Source of the DNA: a virus
Virus record (IMG/VR): IMGVR_UViG_3300010885_067899
Span: 1 to 33,904 of that record
Strand: one strand, 5' to 3'
Length of the DNA: 33,904 nucleotides
Positions 6,121 through 31,739 of the stretch are shown here, piece by piece (position 1 is the stretch's first letter; every line of letters starts with the position of its first letter). The position numbers and the translations under genes are program-made. Under the pieces are notes generated by a model, which saw nothing but the letters and a program-made list of their open reading frames with translations, was not told the origin of the DNA and searched no databases.

Positions 6121-7824
6121 ATGAGCGAACTTTTAAACAGTGGTAAGGTAGGTCTAACAGTATTTAGAAACCTTGCTGAACAAAGACAAGCCATCGTAAG
6201 AAACTGGGATGATTCAGGTCTTCTTGAGGGATTACGTGGTATGAGAAAAGCAAATACTGCACAGTTGATGGAAAACCAAGCGCAAGCTATGTTGAACGAG
6301 GTAACTCTTGATTCATCTGCAGGTAGATTCGACACAGTTGCTTTCCCTATCGTAAGAAGAGTATTCTCTAGATTATTAGCTAACGAGATTGTATCTGTAC
6401 AACCTTTGGCTTTGCCTTCTGGATTATTATTTTACATGGATGCTAGAGTATCTTTCAACGGAAGTGATACAACATTCAACAACCCAGTTACACCTAATTA
6501 CCAGTTTGGTGAAACTGGTACTGCATTAGCTGCCCCAGGTAGCAACCCATTCTATAGCAAAGTAGCTGCGGCTAATACTGCTAATGGTCAAGCTGGACCA
6601 AACTTTGCAGATACAACTGCTTACGAAAGATTCTATAACAATAGAGGTTTTGACCTTTCTTTCGGAACAGGATATACTGCTGTAGGTACAACTACAACTG
6701 CTAACGGAGCTGCTGGATTCTCAGCTAACTCTTTCTCAAATGGTATCTACGCTGGTACATTTGCACTTGGAGGTGGATGGAACGTTTCAACTTCTCAATC
6801 TTCTGCAACTTTAAGATTCTCTGCTACTACTAATATTTATTATTCAGGTGCAAACGGAAACACTCTTCTTGTTGCTGCTGGTGGTAGAATTCCTTTCTAC
6901 TCTCAAATTCAAAGTTATACAAGCGATTTGTTTGCGAATGGTCAAGCTAGAGTTATTCTTGATTTAAGACCTGCTGGTGTTTACGGTTCAGATTTCAACC
7001 CAGCGTTGTTGAACAATGGTTCTACAGCATTTGGTTCGACATTTGCTATCGTATTGACTCCTGCTTATGAAGTATTCAACGACCTTGAAGGTAAATCTGA
7101 AATGGGTGAGATTACTATTAGATTCTCGTCTGTTACAGTTAATACTGAAACAAGAAAATTGAGAGCACACTGGACTCCAGAATTAGCTCAAGATCTTGAG
7201 GCATACCACTCAATTGATGCTGAGGCTGAGTTGACAGCTCTTCTTTCTGAGCACATCGCTGCAGAAATCGATAGAGAAATCATCATCGACCTTATCAACG
7301 AAGCTCCATTTAGAGCAAGATGGGATTATAAAGGTCTTTCAAACAACGCTAACTTCTTCGGAACTCAAAAAGACTGGAATCAAACTCTTATCACAAGAGT
7401 AAACGAACTTTCGGCTCAAATCCACAAATCAACTCTTAGAGGTGGTGCTAACTGGATCGTATGTTCTGCTGAGGCTGGTGCTATCTTTGATGATTTAGAA
7501 TACTTCCACGTTGATGGATCAGCTCAGCCAGAGTCTGAAAAATACAACTTGGGTGTTGAGAAAATTGGTAATCTTGGTTCAAGATATATCGTTTACAAGG
7601 ATCCTTATCTACCTGCTCCAATTGTATTGTTGGGTCACAAAGGTAACACTTTCTTGGAAGCTGGTTATATCTACGCACCATACATTCCTCTTCAGTTGAC
7701 TCAAACTATTTACGATCCAAATGACTTTACTCCACGTAAAGGTATCATGACGAGATATGCTAAAAAGATGGTTAACAACAGATTCTACGGAGTTATCTAC
7801 ATTGATAATATCAATACTTACTAA
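6121..7824 (+). CDS. 23: major capsid protein (T4 gp23 family)
   Basis: A 567-residue precursor of the HK97-fold shell protein. The N-terminal delta-like region ends in MLNE|V at residues 57-61, a good (L/I)-x-E prohead-protease site, so the mature form would start at Val61 and have about 507 residues, close to T4 gp23. The segment FDTVAFPIVRRVFSRLLANEIVSVQPL (roughly 72-100) and the LLFYMDARVSF region that follows are hallmark gp23 sequences. The middle (about 130-270) is Gly/Ala/Ser/Thr-rich and probably holds surface insertions. The gene uses more C-ending codons than its neighbours (AAC, TTC, ATC), as expected for a very highly expressed gene, and its leader is a long A-tract, the usual strong initiation signal in Bacteroidetes. 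A terminator follows. Confidence 0.96.
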   Translation: MSELLNSGKVGLTVFRNLAEQRQAIVRNWDDSGLLEGLRGMRKANTAQLMENQAQAMLNEVTLDSSAGRFDTVAFPIVRRVFSRLLANEIVSVQPLALPSGLLFYMDARVSFNGSDTTFNNPVTPNYQFGETGTALAAPGSNPFYSKVAAANTANGQAGPNFADTTAYERFYNNRGFDLSFGTGYTAVGTTTTANGAAGFSANSFSNGIYAGTFALGGGWNVSTSQSSATLRFSATTNIYYSGANGNTLLVAAGGRIPFYSQIQSYTSDLFANGQARVILDLRPAGVYGSDFNPALLNNGSTAFGSTFAIVLTPAYEVFNDLEGKSEMGEITIRFSSVTVNTETRKLRAHWTPELAQDLEAYHSIDAEAELTALLSEHIAAEIDREIIIDLINEAPFRARWDYKGLSNNANFFGTQKDWNQTLITRVNELSAQIHKSTLRGGANWIVCSAEAGAIFDDLEYFHVDGSAQPESEKYNLGVEKIGNLGSRYIVYKDPYLPAPIVLLGHKGNTFLEAGYIYAPYIPLQLTQTIYDPNDFTPRKGIMTRYAKKMVNNRFYGVIYIDNINTY

Positions 7825-7844
7825 TTATAAATCAATTAGTTACG

Positions 7845-7876
7845 AAAGGGTGGGAATTTTTCTCACCCTTTTTTTT
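7845..7876 (+). terminator. rho-independent terminator after capsid gene
   Basis: AAAGGGTG ... CACCCTTT stem with a T-tract from 7868 on. It insulates the capsid message from the inserted nuclease-methyltransferase gene. Confidence 0.9.
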
Positions 7877-7886
7877 GTTTTAAAAA

Positions 7887-7921
7887 TGATTTTACGCCTA
7901 TAAAGTTGATTTTACGCCTAT
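7887..7921 (+). repeat. tandem 15-bp direct repeat, operator candidate
   Basis: TGATTTTACGCCTAT occurs at 7887-7901 and again at 7907-7921, a 20-bp period (about two helical turns, same DNA face). The second copy overlaps the -33 element and the spacer of the promoter for the gene at 7941. The product of that gene starts with a predicted helix-turn-helix, so autoregulation is plausible. Confidence 0.6.
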
Positions 7922-7936
7922 TTATTATTATATTTG
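7906..7936 (+). promoter_or_regulatory. Bacteroidetes-type promoter for the nuclease-methyltransferase gene
   Basis: TTG at 7906-7908, a 20-nt spacer, then TATATTTG at 7929-7936: a full match to the Bacteroidetes TTG / TAnnTTTG arrangement. The ATG lies only 4 nt after the box, so the message would be leaderless or nearly so. A late-type CTATTTATT (7918-7926) lies in the spacer. Confidence 0.65.
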
Positions 7937-7940
7937 TATT

Positions 7941-10049
7941 ATGAAAGAGATAAATTTAAATAAAGAAGATAGTGTTAGAATAATTAGTTTATTTAAAGAA
8001 GGTGAATCATTAAGAGGAATTTCCAGGTATACTAAATATTCTCAAACATTTATAACTAACTTTCTAAATAAAGAAGGTTTAATAAATAGTGGTTATGAGA
8101 AAATAAAAAATAGGTTTAAAGAAGATATTAACTATGAAGCTATTTGTAAAAAAACTAAAAAAACATATGATGATTATTTAAACTTATCAGGAAAGCTAAC
8201 AACGCATATAAAAGAAATATATCCTGATTTTGTTTTGGAAAGTAAATTTTTAAGAAAAAAGACAGAGTTAAAAATTGGAAAATTTTGGTATGAAGATTTT
8301 TTCGCAATAAAGGAAAAAATAGAAAAAAATGAACCTACATTAAATTGTTTAATTTGTGATTGGAGTTCTAATGATTTAAACAACCAAGCAGGGTCTTTAA
8401 CAAAACATATAGTAAATACTCACAATATTGATATAGATGAATACTTAAAAAAATTTAATGATCAAGGTTTTCTTTTTAAGACTCATTTATTAAAAAAAGA
8501 AGATAGATTAGAGGTGTTGTCTAAAGGTGAAAACCATATTATTTGTAAAATATGCAATGAACCGCTTAAAAGCATAACAAACACACATTTAAAAAAACAT
8601 GGCATTTCTATAAAAAAATACAAAAAAATTTTTGGAGAAACTATTAATTCAGAAAGTACAATAAATAAGTTAAAGCTAAATTCTGGTAATTTTAATAATT
8701 TTAAATTTAAAAACACAAAAATAGAAATACTTATTTCAAATAAATTAAGTGAATTAAAAATAGACTTTATACCCCAAAAACAATCAGACGGTTATGTTTA
8801 TGATTTTTTCATTCCAGAATATAGTTTATTCATAGAATGTGATGGTATTTTTTGGCATGGACATGATAGAGATTCAAATTGGCATTATTCTGTCTTTAAT
8901 AATGTGATTAATGATTATAGAAAAACCATAATAAAACCAAAAAATAAAATATATAGATTAATAGAAGATATTTCTATAAACGAAAACAATTTAAAAAATA
9001 TAAATTCTAAAGATGAGTTTTTTAATTTTTTAATTAAGGAAAATTTCAACATAGAAAATCATACTATTTTTAATTTAAAAGAAAATGTGTCTATTTTTGA
9101 CATAGATAGATGTATTAAGAATAGAGATTTAATTGATGATAAAAATAAAAATAATTTAATACAAAATATTGTTTTTTTGTGGAAAAATTTTTATAATCAT
9201 AATCAGTGTGAAAAATTTTTAGATTTAGACATTAGAAAGGCTGAGTTTAAATTAAAAGGTATATTTTTCAAAGAATTTTATATTGCAAAAAAAATAGGAA
9301 ATAAAAACATAGATGATTTTTTTAATAATGATAATGATGAAATATTAAAAAAAACTGTTGAATATAGATTGGGTTTTAATAATTCAAATGAGTATTTTGA
9401 TTTAAATATAAAAAATCTATATAGAGGCTTGGAAGTTAGAAGCATGTTTAATGTGGGTATATTTTACATAAAACAATCTAAAGAAATATATGAAAAGTAT
9501 ATAGAAAACGAAAATTCAAAAATATATGATCCATTTATAGGGTGGGGTTCTAGACTAACATCTTTAAAAGATTTAATAAAAAATAAAAACTGCAAATATA
9601 TTGGTAATGATATAAATAAAAATCTAAAAATAGGTTATAATAAGCTAATAGATTTAGAATTTGATTTGGAGTCTCATTCTAATATAGACATTAAGTTTAA
9701 AACATCTACTGAGTTAAATTTTGAATTAATTAATAGTATTGATTTTATTTTTACTTCTCCCCCTTTTTATAATGATGAAATTTATTCTTATGATTCATTG
9801 GTATATGAAGATTTAAAAGATTGGGAAGATAATTTATTAACCCCAGTTTTTAATAACTGTTTTTTATATTTAAAAACGAATAGTAGAATAGTTATTGATA
9901 TAAAGGAATTATATACAAATTCTATTTTAAATACATTAGAAAAATCAGGATTTAAAATTGTAGAAATAGAAAACTATAATGTAAGAAAGAGTCATTATAC
10001 AAAAAAAAATACAAAAAAACAGCTACTAATACATGCGGTGAAAATTTAA
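7941..10049 (+). CDS. HTH / zinc finger / Vsr-like nuclease / DNA methyltransferase fusion
   Basis: A 702-residue multidomain protein. Residues about 8-45 look like a helix-turn-helix. Two MucR/Ros-like C2H2 units follow: C136, C139, H156, H161 and C202, C205, H216, H220, each followed by a EYLKKF or KYKKIFG tail. Residues about 258-345 are a Vsr/DUF559-like PD-(D/E)XK nuclease with Y287-D288-F, E299-C-D301-G and W305-H-G-H308. A helical linker leads to a methyltransferase domain with motif I DPFIGWGSRL (530-539), YIGNDIN (553-559) and motif IV TSPPF (605-609), the N4-cytosine/N6-adenine type. All key residues are present. The gene is visibly more AT-rich than the capsid gene before it, has its own host-like promoter and operator repeat, and splits the head and neck genes: signs of acquisition. 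It could be a single-chain restriction-modification enzyme, a homing-type endonuclease with a protective methyltransferase, or a phage DNA-marking enzyme. The domain calls are good; the system-level role is inference. Confidence 0.85.
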   Translation: MKEINLNKEDSVRIISLFKEGESLRGISRYTKYSQTFITNFLNKEGLINSGYEKIKNRFKEDINYEAICKKTKKTYDDYLNLSGKLTTHIKEIYPDFVLESKFLRKKTELKIGKFWYEDFFAIKEKIEKNEPTLNCLICDWSSNDLNNQAGSLTKHIVNTHNIDIDEYLKKFNDQGFLFKTHLLKKEDRLEVLSKGENHIICKICNEPLKSITNTHLKKHGISIKKYKKIFGETINSESTINKLKLNSGNFNNFKFKNTKIEILISNKLSELKIDFIPQKQSDGYVYDFFIPEYSLFIECDGIFWHGHDRDSNWHYSVFNNVINDYRKTIIKPKNKIYRLIEDISINENNLKNINSKDEFFNFLIKENFNIENHTIFNLKENVSIFDIDRCIKNRDLIDDKNKNNLIQNIVFLWKNFYNHNQCEKFLDLDIRKAEFKLKGIFFKEFYIAKKIGNKNIDDFFNNDNDEILKKTVEYRLGFNNSNEYFDLNIKNLYRGLEVRSMFNVGIFYIKQSKEIYEKYIENENSKIYDPFIGWGSRLTSLKDLIKNKNCKYIGNDINKNLKIGYNKLIDLEFDLESHSNIDIKFKTSTELNFELINSIDFIFTSPPFYNDEIYSYDSLVYEDLKDWEDNLLTPVFNNCFLYLKTNSRIVIDIKELYTNSILNTLEKSGFKIVEIENYNVRKSHYTKKNTKKQLLIHAVKI

Positions 10050-10122: not shown

Positions 10123-10782
10123 ATGAGTCTTAGAAAAATCATAAGAGAAAATATAGAAAATATTACAGGAACAGATCAATTGTTTGATATTGATGGTTTT
10201 GAATTTGTTAATAAAAAAACAGATAAAAACAATAATATTCTTTGGAAATATTCAAAATCAATAAAAAGTGGGTCCAGTAATAGAAAAGATAATGACTATA
10301 TTTTTAATGTTTTTATAGCAAAAACACCTAACGAAAATTGGTATTATAAATTTTTTGTCTATTGGAAAATACATACTTCTGATGCTACAAGCGGAAAAGG
10401 AAAAGATTTTGATTTACAATTTGGTCCATTTGATTCATTAGAGGCGATGGAAAAGGATTTAATGCATAATTTAAATCACAATACGTTATATTCTTTTAAT
10501 AACTATAAGGATAATAATAAGATTCAACTAGATAATGAAATTTTTACAATGGTTGAAAGGGCTAGAGAAGTGTATGATAAATTGAAGTCTTGTTCAGACT
10601 CCTATTTTGATGACTTGAAGAAAGAATTACCAAATTTATTTAAAGAAAAATCTGAAGTTCAATTATATATTGACGATTCTTACCCTGATGAAGATGATAA
10701 ACAGCAGTTATTGTTAATGCTTAGTAAGATAGGATCTTTAGATAACCTGAAAGAAATAGAGTCAATCAAATCAATATTTTAA
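10123..10782 (+). CDS. possible internal head protein (function unknown)
   Basis: A 219-residue protein with no family that I recognise. It starts MSLRKIIRENIENITG, closely matching the start of the 153-residue protein at 31736 (LRYIIREQVE), and has I7-R8-E9 as a potential prohead-protease site. The middle is aromatic and beta-rich (ENWYYKFFVYWKIH), the C-terminus helical and acidic. A late-type box precedes it, and it sits between capsid and neck genes once the inserted methyltransferase gene is ignored. The start at 10123 is preferred because the ATG at 10114 is in another frame and stops at once. By analogy with the short leaders of T4 internal proteins, it may be packaged in the head; this is a hypothesis. 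Confidence 0.75.
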   Translation: MSLRKIIRENIENITGTDQLFDIDGFEFVNKKTDKNNNILWKYSKSIKSGSSNRKDNDYIFNVFIAKTPNENWYYKFFVYWKIHTSDATSGKGKDFDLQFGPFDSLEAMEKDLMHNLNHNTLYSFNNYKDNNKIQLDNEIFTMVERAREVYDKLKSCSDSYFDDLKKELPNLFKEKSEVQLYIDDSYPDEDDKQQLLLMLSKIGSLDNLKEIESIKSIF

Positions 10783-31283: not shown

Positions 31284-31739
31284 ATGAAGAAGATAAATTT
31301 TAAGAAAGCAGCGGGTAGGGAATTAAGTAAGGCAAAGAAACATGCTAGAAGCCCTTTTGGGTCAAGCCAAGATTTGAAAAATAAAGCCTCTAAGATGTCA
31401 ACAAAAATGACAAAGCCTGAGAGGGAAATGAATCAAATCTTAACGGAATTAAATGTTGAGTTCGAACCACAGAAAGTTGTTGGATCTAAGATTTATGACT
31501 TTTATGTTCCTAAGGCAAACTTGCTCATCGAAGTTGATGGGGATTACTTTCATGCAAATCCTGATGTATATACAGAAGGAGATTTGAATTCGATGCAAAA
31601 AAGAAATGTAAAAAACGATGAGTTTAAAGATACTCTTGCCAACGGAAGAGGTTATATTTTAACTAGAGTTTGGGAAAGTGACTTGGCAAAAAAATACGAA
31701 GAAGTAAAAGAAAGCATAAAAAAACAAATTAGTTTATGA
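31284..31739 (+). CDS. Vsr/DUF559-like PD-(D/E)XK endonuclease
   Basis: A 151-residue protein. After a basic, Lys-rich N-terminal tail (1-40) comes a nuclease fold of the very-short-patch-repair type: KPEREMNQIL with E46/E48, then K-IYDFYVP with D72, then LLIEVDGDYFHANP with E83, D85 and H90, and ILTRVWESDL at the end. These match the E...D...E-x-D...H pattern of that superfamily. The gene has a late-type box and is coupled to the next gene (ATGA overlap), which may encode an internal head protein. A late, possibly injected or DNA-processing endonuclease is therefore plausible. The same type of nuclease core is present in the fusion protein at 7941. Confidence 0.8.
   Translation: MKKINFKKAAGRELSKAKKHARSPFGSSQDLKNKASKMSTKMTKPEREMNQILTELNVEFEPQKVVGSKIYDFYVPKANLLIEVDGDYFHANPDVYTEGDLNSMQKRNVKNDEFKDTLANGRGYILTRVWESDLAKKYEEVKESIKKQISL

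Follow-up and report, generated by a model that had tools for sequence, protein, structure and literature searches.

What is a protein that appears to join DNA-binding modules, a nuclease and a methyltransferase in one chain doing among the head genes of a phage? In the window analysed here, a viral stretch of 33,904 nucleotides, a single ORF (ATG start, 702 aa, reading frame unbroken) lies between the major capsid gene gp23 and the neck-gene cluster, so that it splits capsid from neck genes as a first-pass annotation had observed. That annotation left two readings, a self-contained restriction-modification unit or a homing gene that shields its own site through methylation. From the domains of the protein, its relatives and its genomic position we suggest that it is probably a homing gene with an added methyltransferase.

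Domains and conservation of the 702-residue protein

The ORF has a gap-free 702-aa ortholog with 90% identity in locus L001 (related loci are numbered from L001), and a partial one in L002 (258 aa, corresponding to residues 445-702, 96% identity), both within the same gene order. The dN/dS against L001 is 0.108 overall, and 0.111 for the C-terminal part of gp23. Divided by part it is 0.156 for the finger arm, 0.06 for the nuclease, 0.042 for the linking region and 0.141 for the methyltransferase; purifying selection therefore acts on every domain (0.04-0.16), and the low values of the nuclease and the methyltransferase imply that both enzymatic parts are maintained. A chance ORF is ruled out by the frameshift-free orthologs and the overall dN/dS. 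With 20.9% GC the ORF lies below gp23 (39.6%), in agreement with the AT-richness reported earlier. PHROGs and PADLOC searches returned endonuclease and methyltransferase matches, and the domains follow in the order helix-turn-helix, degenerate finger, two C2H2 fingers, EDxHD/Vsr-fold nuclease and a complete N4/N6 methyltransferase of the phage type (Table 1).

Table 1. Positions of the 702-aa ORF, its parts and its flanking elements in the window.
Feature	Position	Strand	Support or remark
gp23 major capsid gene, landmark of the slot	6121..7824	+	Pfam Gp23 1.4e-72
gp23 intrinsic terminator, just upstream of the insertion	7844..7872	+	conserved in L001 and other capsid loci
Two copies of TGATTTTACGCCT (7887-7899 and 7907-7919, 20 bp spacing)	7887..7919	+	possible operator/promoter element
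Promoter-like TTG-N20-TATATTTG (Bacteroidetes-like)	7906..7936	+	conserved in L001
702-aa ORF, probable free-standing homing-endonuclease gene fused to a methyltransferase	7941..10049	+	dN/dS 0.108 vs L001
Helix-turn-helix-like N-terminus, residues 1-48	7941..8084	+	AlphaFold helices 8-19, 24-31, 35-44
Degenerate first zinc finger, residues 69-94, C69 and H89 kept	8145..8222	+	alignment with L010 and L005
C2H2 finger 1 (C136, C139, H156, H161)	8346..8423	+	invariant in alignment
C2H2 finger 2, MucR/Ros type (C202, C205, H216, H220)	8544..8600	+	Pfam ROS_MUCR; invariant
Predicted EDxHD/Vsr-fold nuclease, residues 255-342 (catalytic E262, D288, D301, H306, D325)	8703..8966	+	HMM, PDB profile, Foldseek, VIA
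Counterpart of the N-terminal region of free-standing phage methyltransferases, residues 351-505	8991..9455	+	lowest dN/dS (0.042)
Methyltransferase domain, residues 506-702	9456..10046	+	PADLOC MTase_II 2e-7; alignment; Foldseek; PDB profile
219-aa gene; missing in empty-site L038 and L041; 3' of the fusion in L001 and L002	10123..10782	+	
92-aa gene; counterpart directly after gp23 in empty-site L038 and L041	10803..11081	+	

The N-terminal part, described earlier as helix-turn-helix-like, is without a Pfam match and was modelled by AlphaFold as three helices (block pLDDT about 65-83). The two C2H2 units of the first-pass annotation hold up, each of their eight Cys and His residues being the same in all of five divergent sequences. 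They are preceded by a degenerate third finger that had been overlooked; L010 and L005 have CxxC...H at its position. Pfam ROS_MUCR matches residues 197-232 (27.6 bits against a cut-off of 25.4), and this is a match to the finger domain only, the protein being no MucR regulator. A long and rare target is suggested by the number of fingers in the arm.

For the nuclease, a core of D288, E299 and D301 had been proposed. All three residues are present, but the set that is invariant in 16 of 16 diverse family members is E262, D288, D301, G302, H306 and D325, and E299 is replaced by D in one of the 16. An HMM built from small homing-type and intein nucleases, with methyltransferase-containing proteins excluded, matched residues 255-341 (E = 6e-18), and it also matched the Hef-type proteins described below. 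In the PDB profile search the best match was 3r3p (I-Bth0305I, 4.6e-12), followed by 3hrl and Vsr (2e-6). Because the Foldseek matches listed for the whole model were all methyltransferases, the nuclease domain was modelled separately (pLDDT 69.5); the best Foldseek match of this model was again I-Bth0305I (3r3p, 9.7e-4), and VIA gave Z scores of 8.3 to 3r3p and 9.2 to Vsr (1vsr; rmsd 2.6 over 94 residues). Mitoribosomal chains received structural scores nearly equal to these, so the fold match backs the sequence evidence and does not replace it. A nuclease fold at residues 258-345, on which the earlier proposal depended, was thus found in the model, and the predicted nuclease groups with I-Bth0305I and intein endonucleases. 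Assignment as a true Vsr repair enzyme was rejected (Pfam 25.2 bits against a cut-off of 27; NCBIfam 24.4 against 97.85). The EDxHD nuclease also sits within intein-like insertions of phage proteins in L016, L017, L019 and L030, and the window encodes a second family member, a 151-aa ORF at 31284-31739 (DUF559/EDxHD, with phrog homing/HNH endonuclease matches), which is near a T4 baseplate gene and carries no recognised DNA-binding arm.

In the C-terminal part, the two motifs that had been read as those of a methyltransferase, DPFIGWG (motif I, 530-536) and TSPPF (motif IV, 605-609), align with the motifs of free-standing phage methyltransferases and have the FxGxG-type motif I and S/D/N-PP-Y/F motif IV of phage N4/N6 enzymes; the preceding residues 351-505 have pLDDT mostly below 50. 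PDB profile matches of the methyltransferase are mostly DNA methylases, and among named viral structures the best matches are modification methylases, several of them labelled N4-cytosine-specific, so that DNA is the likely substrate on sequence and model comparison. The nearest solved folds of the whole model in Foldseek are tRNA m2G enzymes (TrmN/Trm11), which leaves room for an RNA substrate. Searches with Pfam, PHROGs, NCBIfam and PADLOC models recognised no target-recognition domain after the methyltransferase, and the ORF ends 93 residues past motif IV.

Occupancy of the site downstream of gp23

Upstream of the ORF, the two exact copies of TGATTTTACGCCT are conserved in L001 and occur nowhere else in the window; as a genome-wide site the element was rejected, matches with ≤3 mismatches being not above chance. 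In Hef-type genes of the same slot, a CCTAAATTTGG-like element, nearly palindromic, stands at the position that matches these repeats. The TTG-N20-TATATTTG arrangement, which we take to agree with the Bacteroidetes promoter consensus, is kept in L001, and a sigma-70 scan did not rise above shuffled sequence (24 against 28); the host-like promoter claimed earlier is therefore suggestive only.

In two close relatives (L038 and L041) gp23 and its terminator are followed directly by the 92-aa gene with nothing between them, i.e. the slot is empty. L040 and L046 carry a Hef-type gene exactly where L038 and L041 have none, and L036 and L042 carry one at the same position 3' of the gp23 terminator; the gp23 proteins of these four Hef-bearing loci are 71-92% identical to that of the window. 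Close relatives are thus polymorphic for presence and absence of a gene at a fixed site, the pattern of a homing endonuclease. The finger arm of the window protein is 38-48% identical to those of the four Hef-type proteins over 164-187 residues, and no similarity was detected between the C-terminal part of the window protein and those of these closest relatives' proteins, which together point to a module swap on a common arm.

Fusions of nuclease and methyltransferase occupy the slot in the window, L001, L005, L117, L131, L159 and L192/L196. In L005 (LR756508), a distant jumbo phage, a Hef-type gene and a fusion gene stand in tandem after gp23; a single-protein query with the LR756508 gene found no close homologue in viral contigs. 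The slot fusions of L131, L117, L159 and L192/L196, which are likewise distant jumbo phages, have other arms, either three fingers with a NUMOD3-like motif or DUF7487, and the NUMOD3-like motifs in L005 and L131 score slightly under the Pfam cut-off. Of the 85 gp23 loci that extend for at least 900 bases 3' of the gene, 21 have a homing-type slot gene, 8 of the 21 with a methyltransferase, in a set that mixes several searches and so gives no frequency estimate; among the gp23-anchored loci, 9 of 80 have such a gene without a methyltransferase. When the scan was run without gp23 as its anchor, the loci that combine the finger arm with the nuclease (L001, L009, L010/L011) adjoined gp23, as did L028, whose finger arm differs. 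The Hef-type genes of L010, L011 and L028 are oriented opposite to gp23, which fits mobile insertions and not operon members. A bacterial source was considered and rejected: a genome-contig scan with alignment A1 confirmed no relative, and a plasmid search gave a single weak match to the methyltransferase part only (E 8e-3). A scan with alignment A3, whose patterns were poor, recovered the known locus alone.

The fusion gene of LR756508 is followed (L005 13483-19362) by a run of similar genes whose products start with M(R/K)(L/F)K..L and contain the motifs YRG/RGT and S.S; they may be internal head proteins resembling ADP-ribosyltransferases. The start of the 219-aa gene product in the window (10123-10782) resembles those of this run.

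Modification-type domains joined to homing nucleases

In a tree of the methyltransferase family, the gp23-slot members form a single branch (94/90) that includes L122, in which the methyltransferase is fused to NUMOD4 and HNH_3; the methyltransferases of L034 and L129/L156 fall outside it. The L034 gene (LR745208, 988-4677) lies directly 3' of a major head protein gene (phrog_2522, 6e-40) and encodes a 1229-aa protein with LAGLIDADG_2 (1.7e-38), a helix-turn-helix, the same methyltransferase family and a CGNR zinc finger. On this sequence evidence, fusions of the methyltransferase to homing nucleases arose, tentatively, three or more times, the count being tentative because the branches are long. 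Most family members that we found lack a homing-nuclease fusion, and among the loci examined no unfused member adjoins gp23. Two further proteins, L129 2369-4579 and L156 2237-4588, which are not beside gp23, combine a finger, a possible nuclease (motif IVEAHGDQH) and the methyltransferase; as EDxHD nucleases they gave no significant match (E 0.2-0.4) and were not counted.

Motif IV is SPPY/F in nearly all family members. The exceptions are L132 (CPPF) and a group with SIPY (L005 11326-13260, L117, L131, L159 and L192), which is confined to the gp23 slot, where all fusions other than those of the window, L001 and L002 have SIPY and not SPPY. The activity of the SIPY-bearing fusions may differ, judging from this motif. 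Erm/KsgA enzymes work with NIPY or NLPY, and SIPY is therefore not necessarily inactive.

The Hef-type proteins end in another domain (L020 6352-6918, L022 6223-6786, L040 8718-9311, L205 1304-3034), which gave no match in the window ORF, where the methyltransferase forms the C-terminus. Pfam Mom matches it in L020 with 34.3 bits (2.5e-8; cut-off 27.1) and more weakly, below the cut-off, in L022, L040 and the annotated RaK2 hef, and some Hef members are without a match. Comparison by hhalign of the Hef C-terminal profile with Mu Mom relatives gave a probability of 96.2 (E 2.2e-9), and 15 Hef and 8 Mom sequences have conserved H, E, R, D and Y positions in common. We therefore assign it to the Mom family of GNAT-like DNA modification domains, with a predicted modification function; by tblastn it matches 328 phage records. 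With a Mom-family domain in the Hef-type proteins and a methyltransferase in the fusions, the pairing of a nuclease with a modifier recurs in the slot, suggesting that cutting is combined with marking there as a matter of routine.

Proposed homing with self-marking and its alternatives

Since the slot is empty, holds a Hef-type gene or holds a fusion across relatives, we favour a homing gene with a methyltransferase over a classical restriction-modification system. On balance we think it probable that the ORF is a free-standing (intronless) homing gene that has acquired a methyltransferase, cuts the unoccupied allele and marks its own genome as self. The helix-turn-helix and zinc-finger arm would locate a long target in or beside gp23, and the EDxHD nuclease would break this target in a co-infecting relative that lacks the element. 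Repair from the occupied genome would then copy the gene and flanking capsid DNA into the cut relative. The methyltransferase would mark the carrier genome at the target or close by, protecting it from the nuclease, and the mark may also spare freshly converted copies. Free-standing homing genes must spare the genome that carries them and usually do so by target disruption or divergence; donors of ordinary elements, protected by the insertion or by sequence divergence, need no methyltransferase. Self-marking is the least certain step. Of the earlier idea of a homing gene protecting its own site, it is the homing part that the slot polymorphism and the kinship with I-Bth0305I and intein endonucleases bear out.

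A one-polypeptide restriction-modification enzyme, which would methylate its own genome and cut the DNA of competing phages or of the host at any of many short sites that lack the methyl mark, would equally join a conserved nuclease and a conserved methyltransferase in a single chain. We consider it unlikely: the kin and the location of the gene are typical of homing genes, and the multi-finger arm suggests a rare target and not a short one. The domain content of the self-contained unit envisaged earlier stands, but the gene is unlike that of a type IIG enzyme, having no recognised specificity domain past the methyltransferase. A methyltransferase without a part in homing, carried along as a passenger or directed at RNA or at other places in the genome, is in our view quite unlikely. 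The tRNA methyltransferases among the nearest solved folds and the predominance of unfused family members fit this reading, and they are outweighed by apparently separate fusions to different nuclease classes, by the modification methylases, several called N4-cytosine-specific, among the viral structural matches, and by the DNA methylases in the PDB profile search. Very unlikely is an immunity gene of homing descent that by now mainly methylates a gp23-linked target and so bars sister Hef-type endonucleases with a related arm. The Hef-type genes of sister phages do share the finger arm and the slot, but the nuclease keeps its full catalytic set and its dN/dS (0.06) is below that of the methyltransferase (0.14), so it is not decaying.

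The combination differs from the systems that it resembles. Like I-Bth0305I, an EDxHD enzyme (family reviewed in PMC3943268), the protein has the predicted nuclease fold, the E-D-x-H-D residues and an extended DNA-binding arm on the nuclease; I-Bth0305I is intron-encoded, however, whereas the window protein comes from a free-standing gene and has C2H2 fingers and a methyltransferase in addition. Hef-type endonucleases (phrog_3339; annotated hef in RaK2 and others) share the gp23 slot, a related arm and a related nuclease but have ExN in place of ExD in the nuclease core, a Mom-family C-terminus and no methyltransferase. Homing genes near capsid genes have been described (PMC10448857), and T4 SegF, SegG, MobE and segD, the last between genes 23 and 24 (PMC2988022), are likewise intergenic homing genes beside essential genes, but with GIY-YIG or HNH nucleases and no known modification domain. 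Free-standing phage N4/N6 methyltransferases (Vibrio phage 2.058.O, Staphylococcus Alsa, Bacteroides DAC phages) have the same catalytic motifs, and that of 2.058.O also matches in its N-terminal region, but they have neither nuclease nor finger arm and lie away from gp23 in the loci examined. Type IIG restriction-modification enzymes also place nuclease and methyltransferase in one chain; the window protein differs in its nuclease family, its genomic setting and its lack of a recognised C-terminal target-recognition domain. In the ShiLan domain a homing nuclease is associated with a phage methylase, but there an HNH element interrupts the methylase gene out of frame (PMC11855218), whereas the window protein is one in-frame chain with the nuclease first. 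In the open-access literature, to which our search was confined, we found no description of a nuclease-methyltransferase homing fusion or of the link between Hef and Mom.

One protein could both cut rival copies and shield its own. If this is true, the fused modification enzyme would let the element retain an intact target and yet be spared, and homing and restriction-modification would be joined in a single protein, which would also be a natural zinc-finger nuclease-methyltransferase scaffold. More tentatively, and at somewhat less than even odds in our judgement, nuclease-methyltransferase or nuclease-Mom-like proteins may be common among phage homing endonucleases and form a self-marking class between selfish homing genes and restriction-modification.
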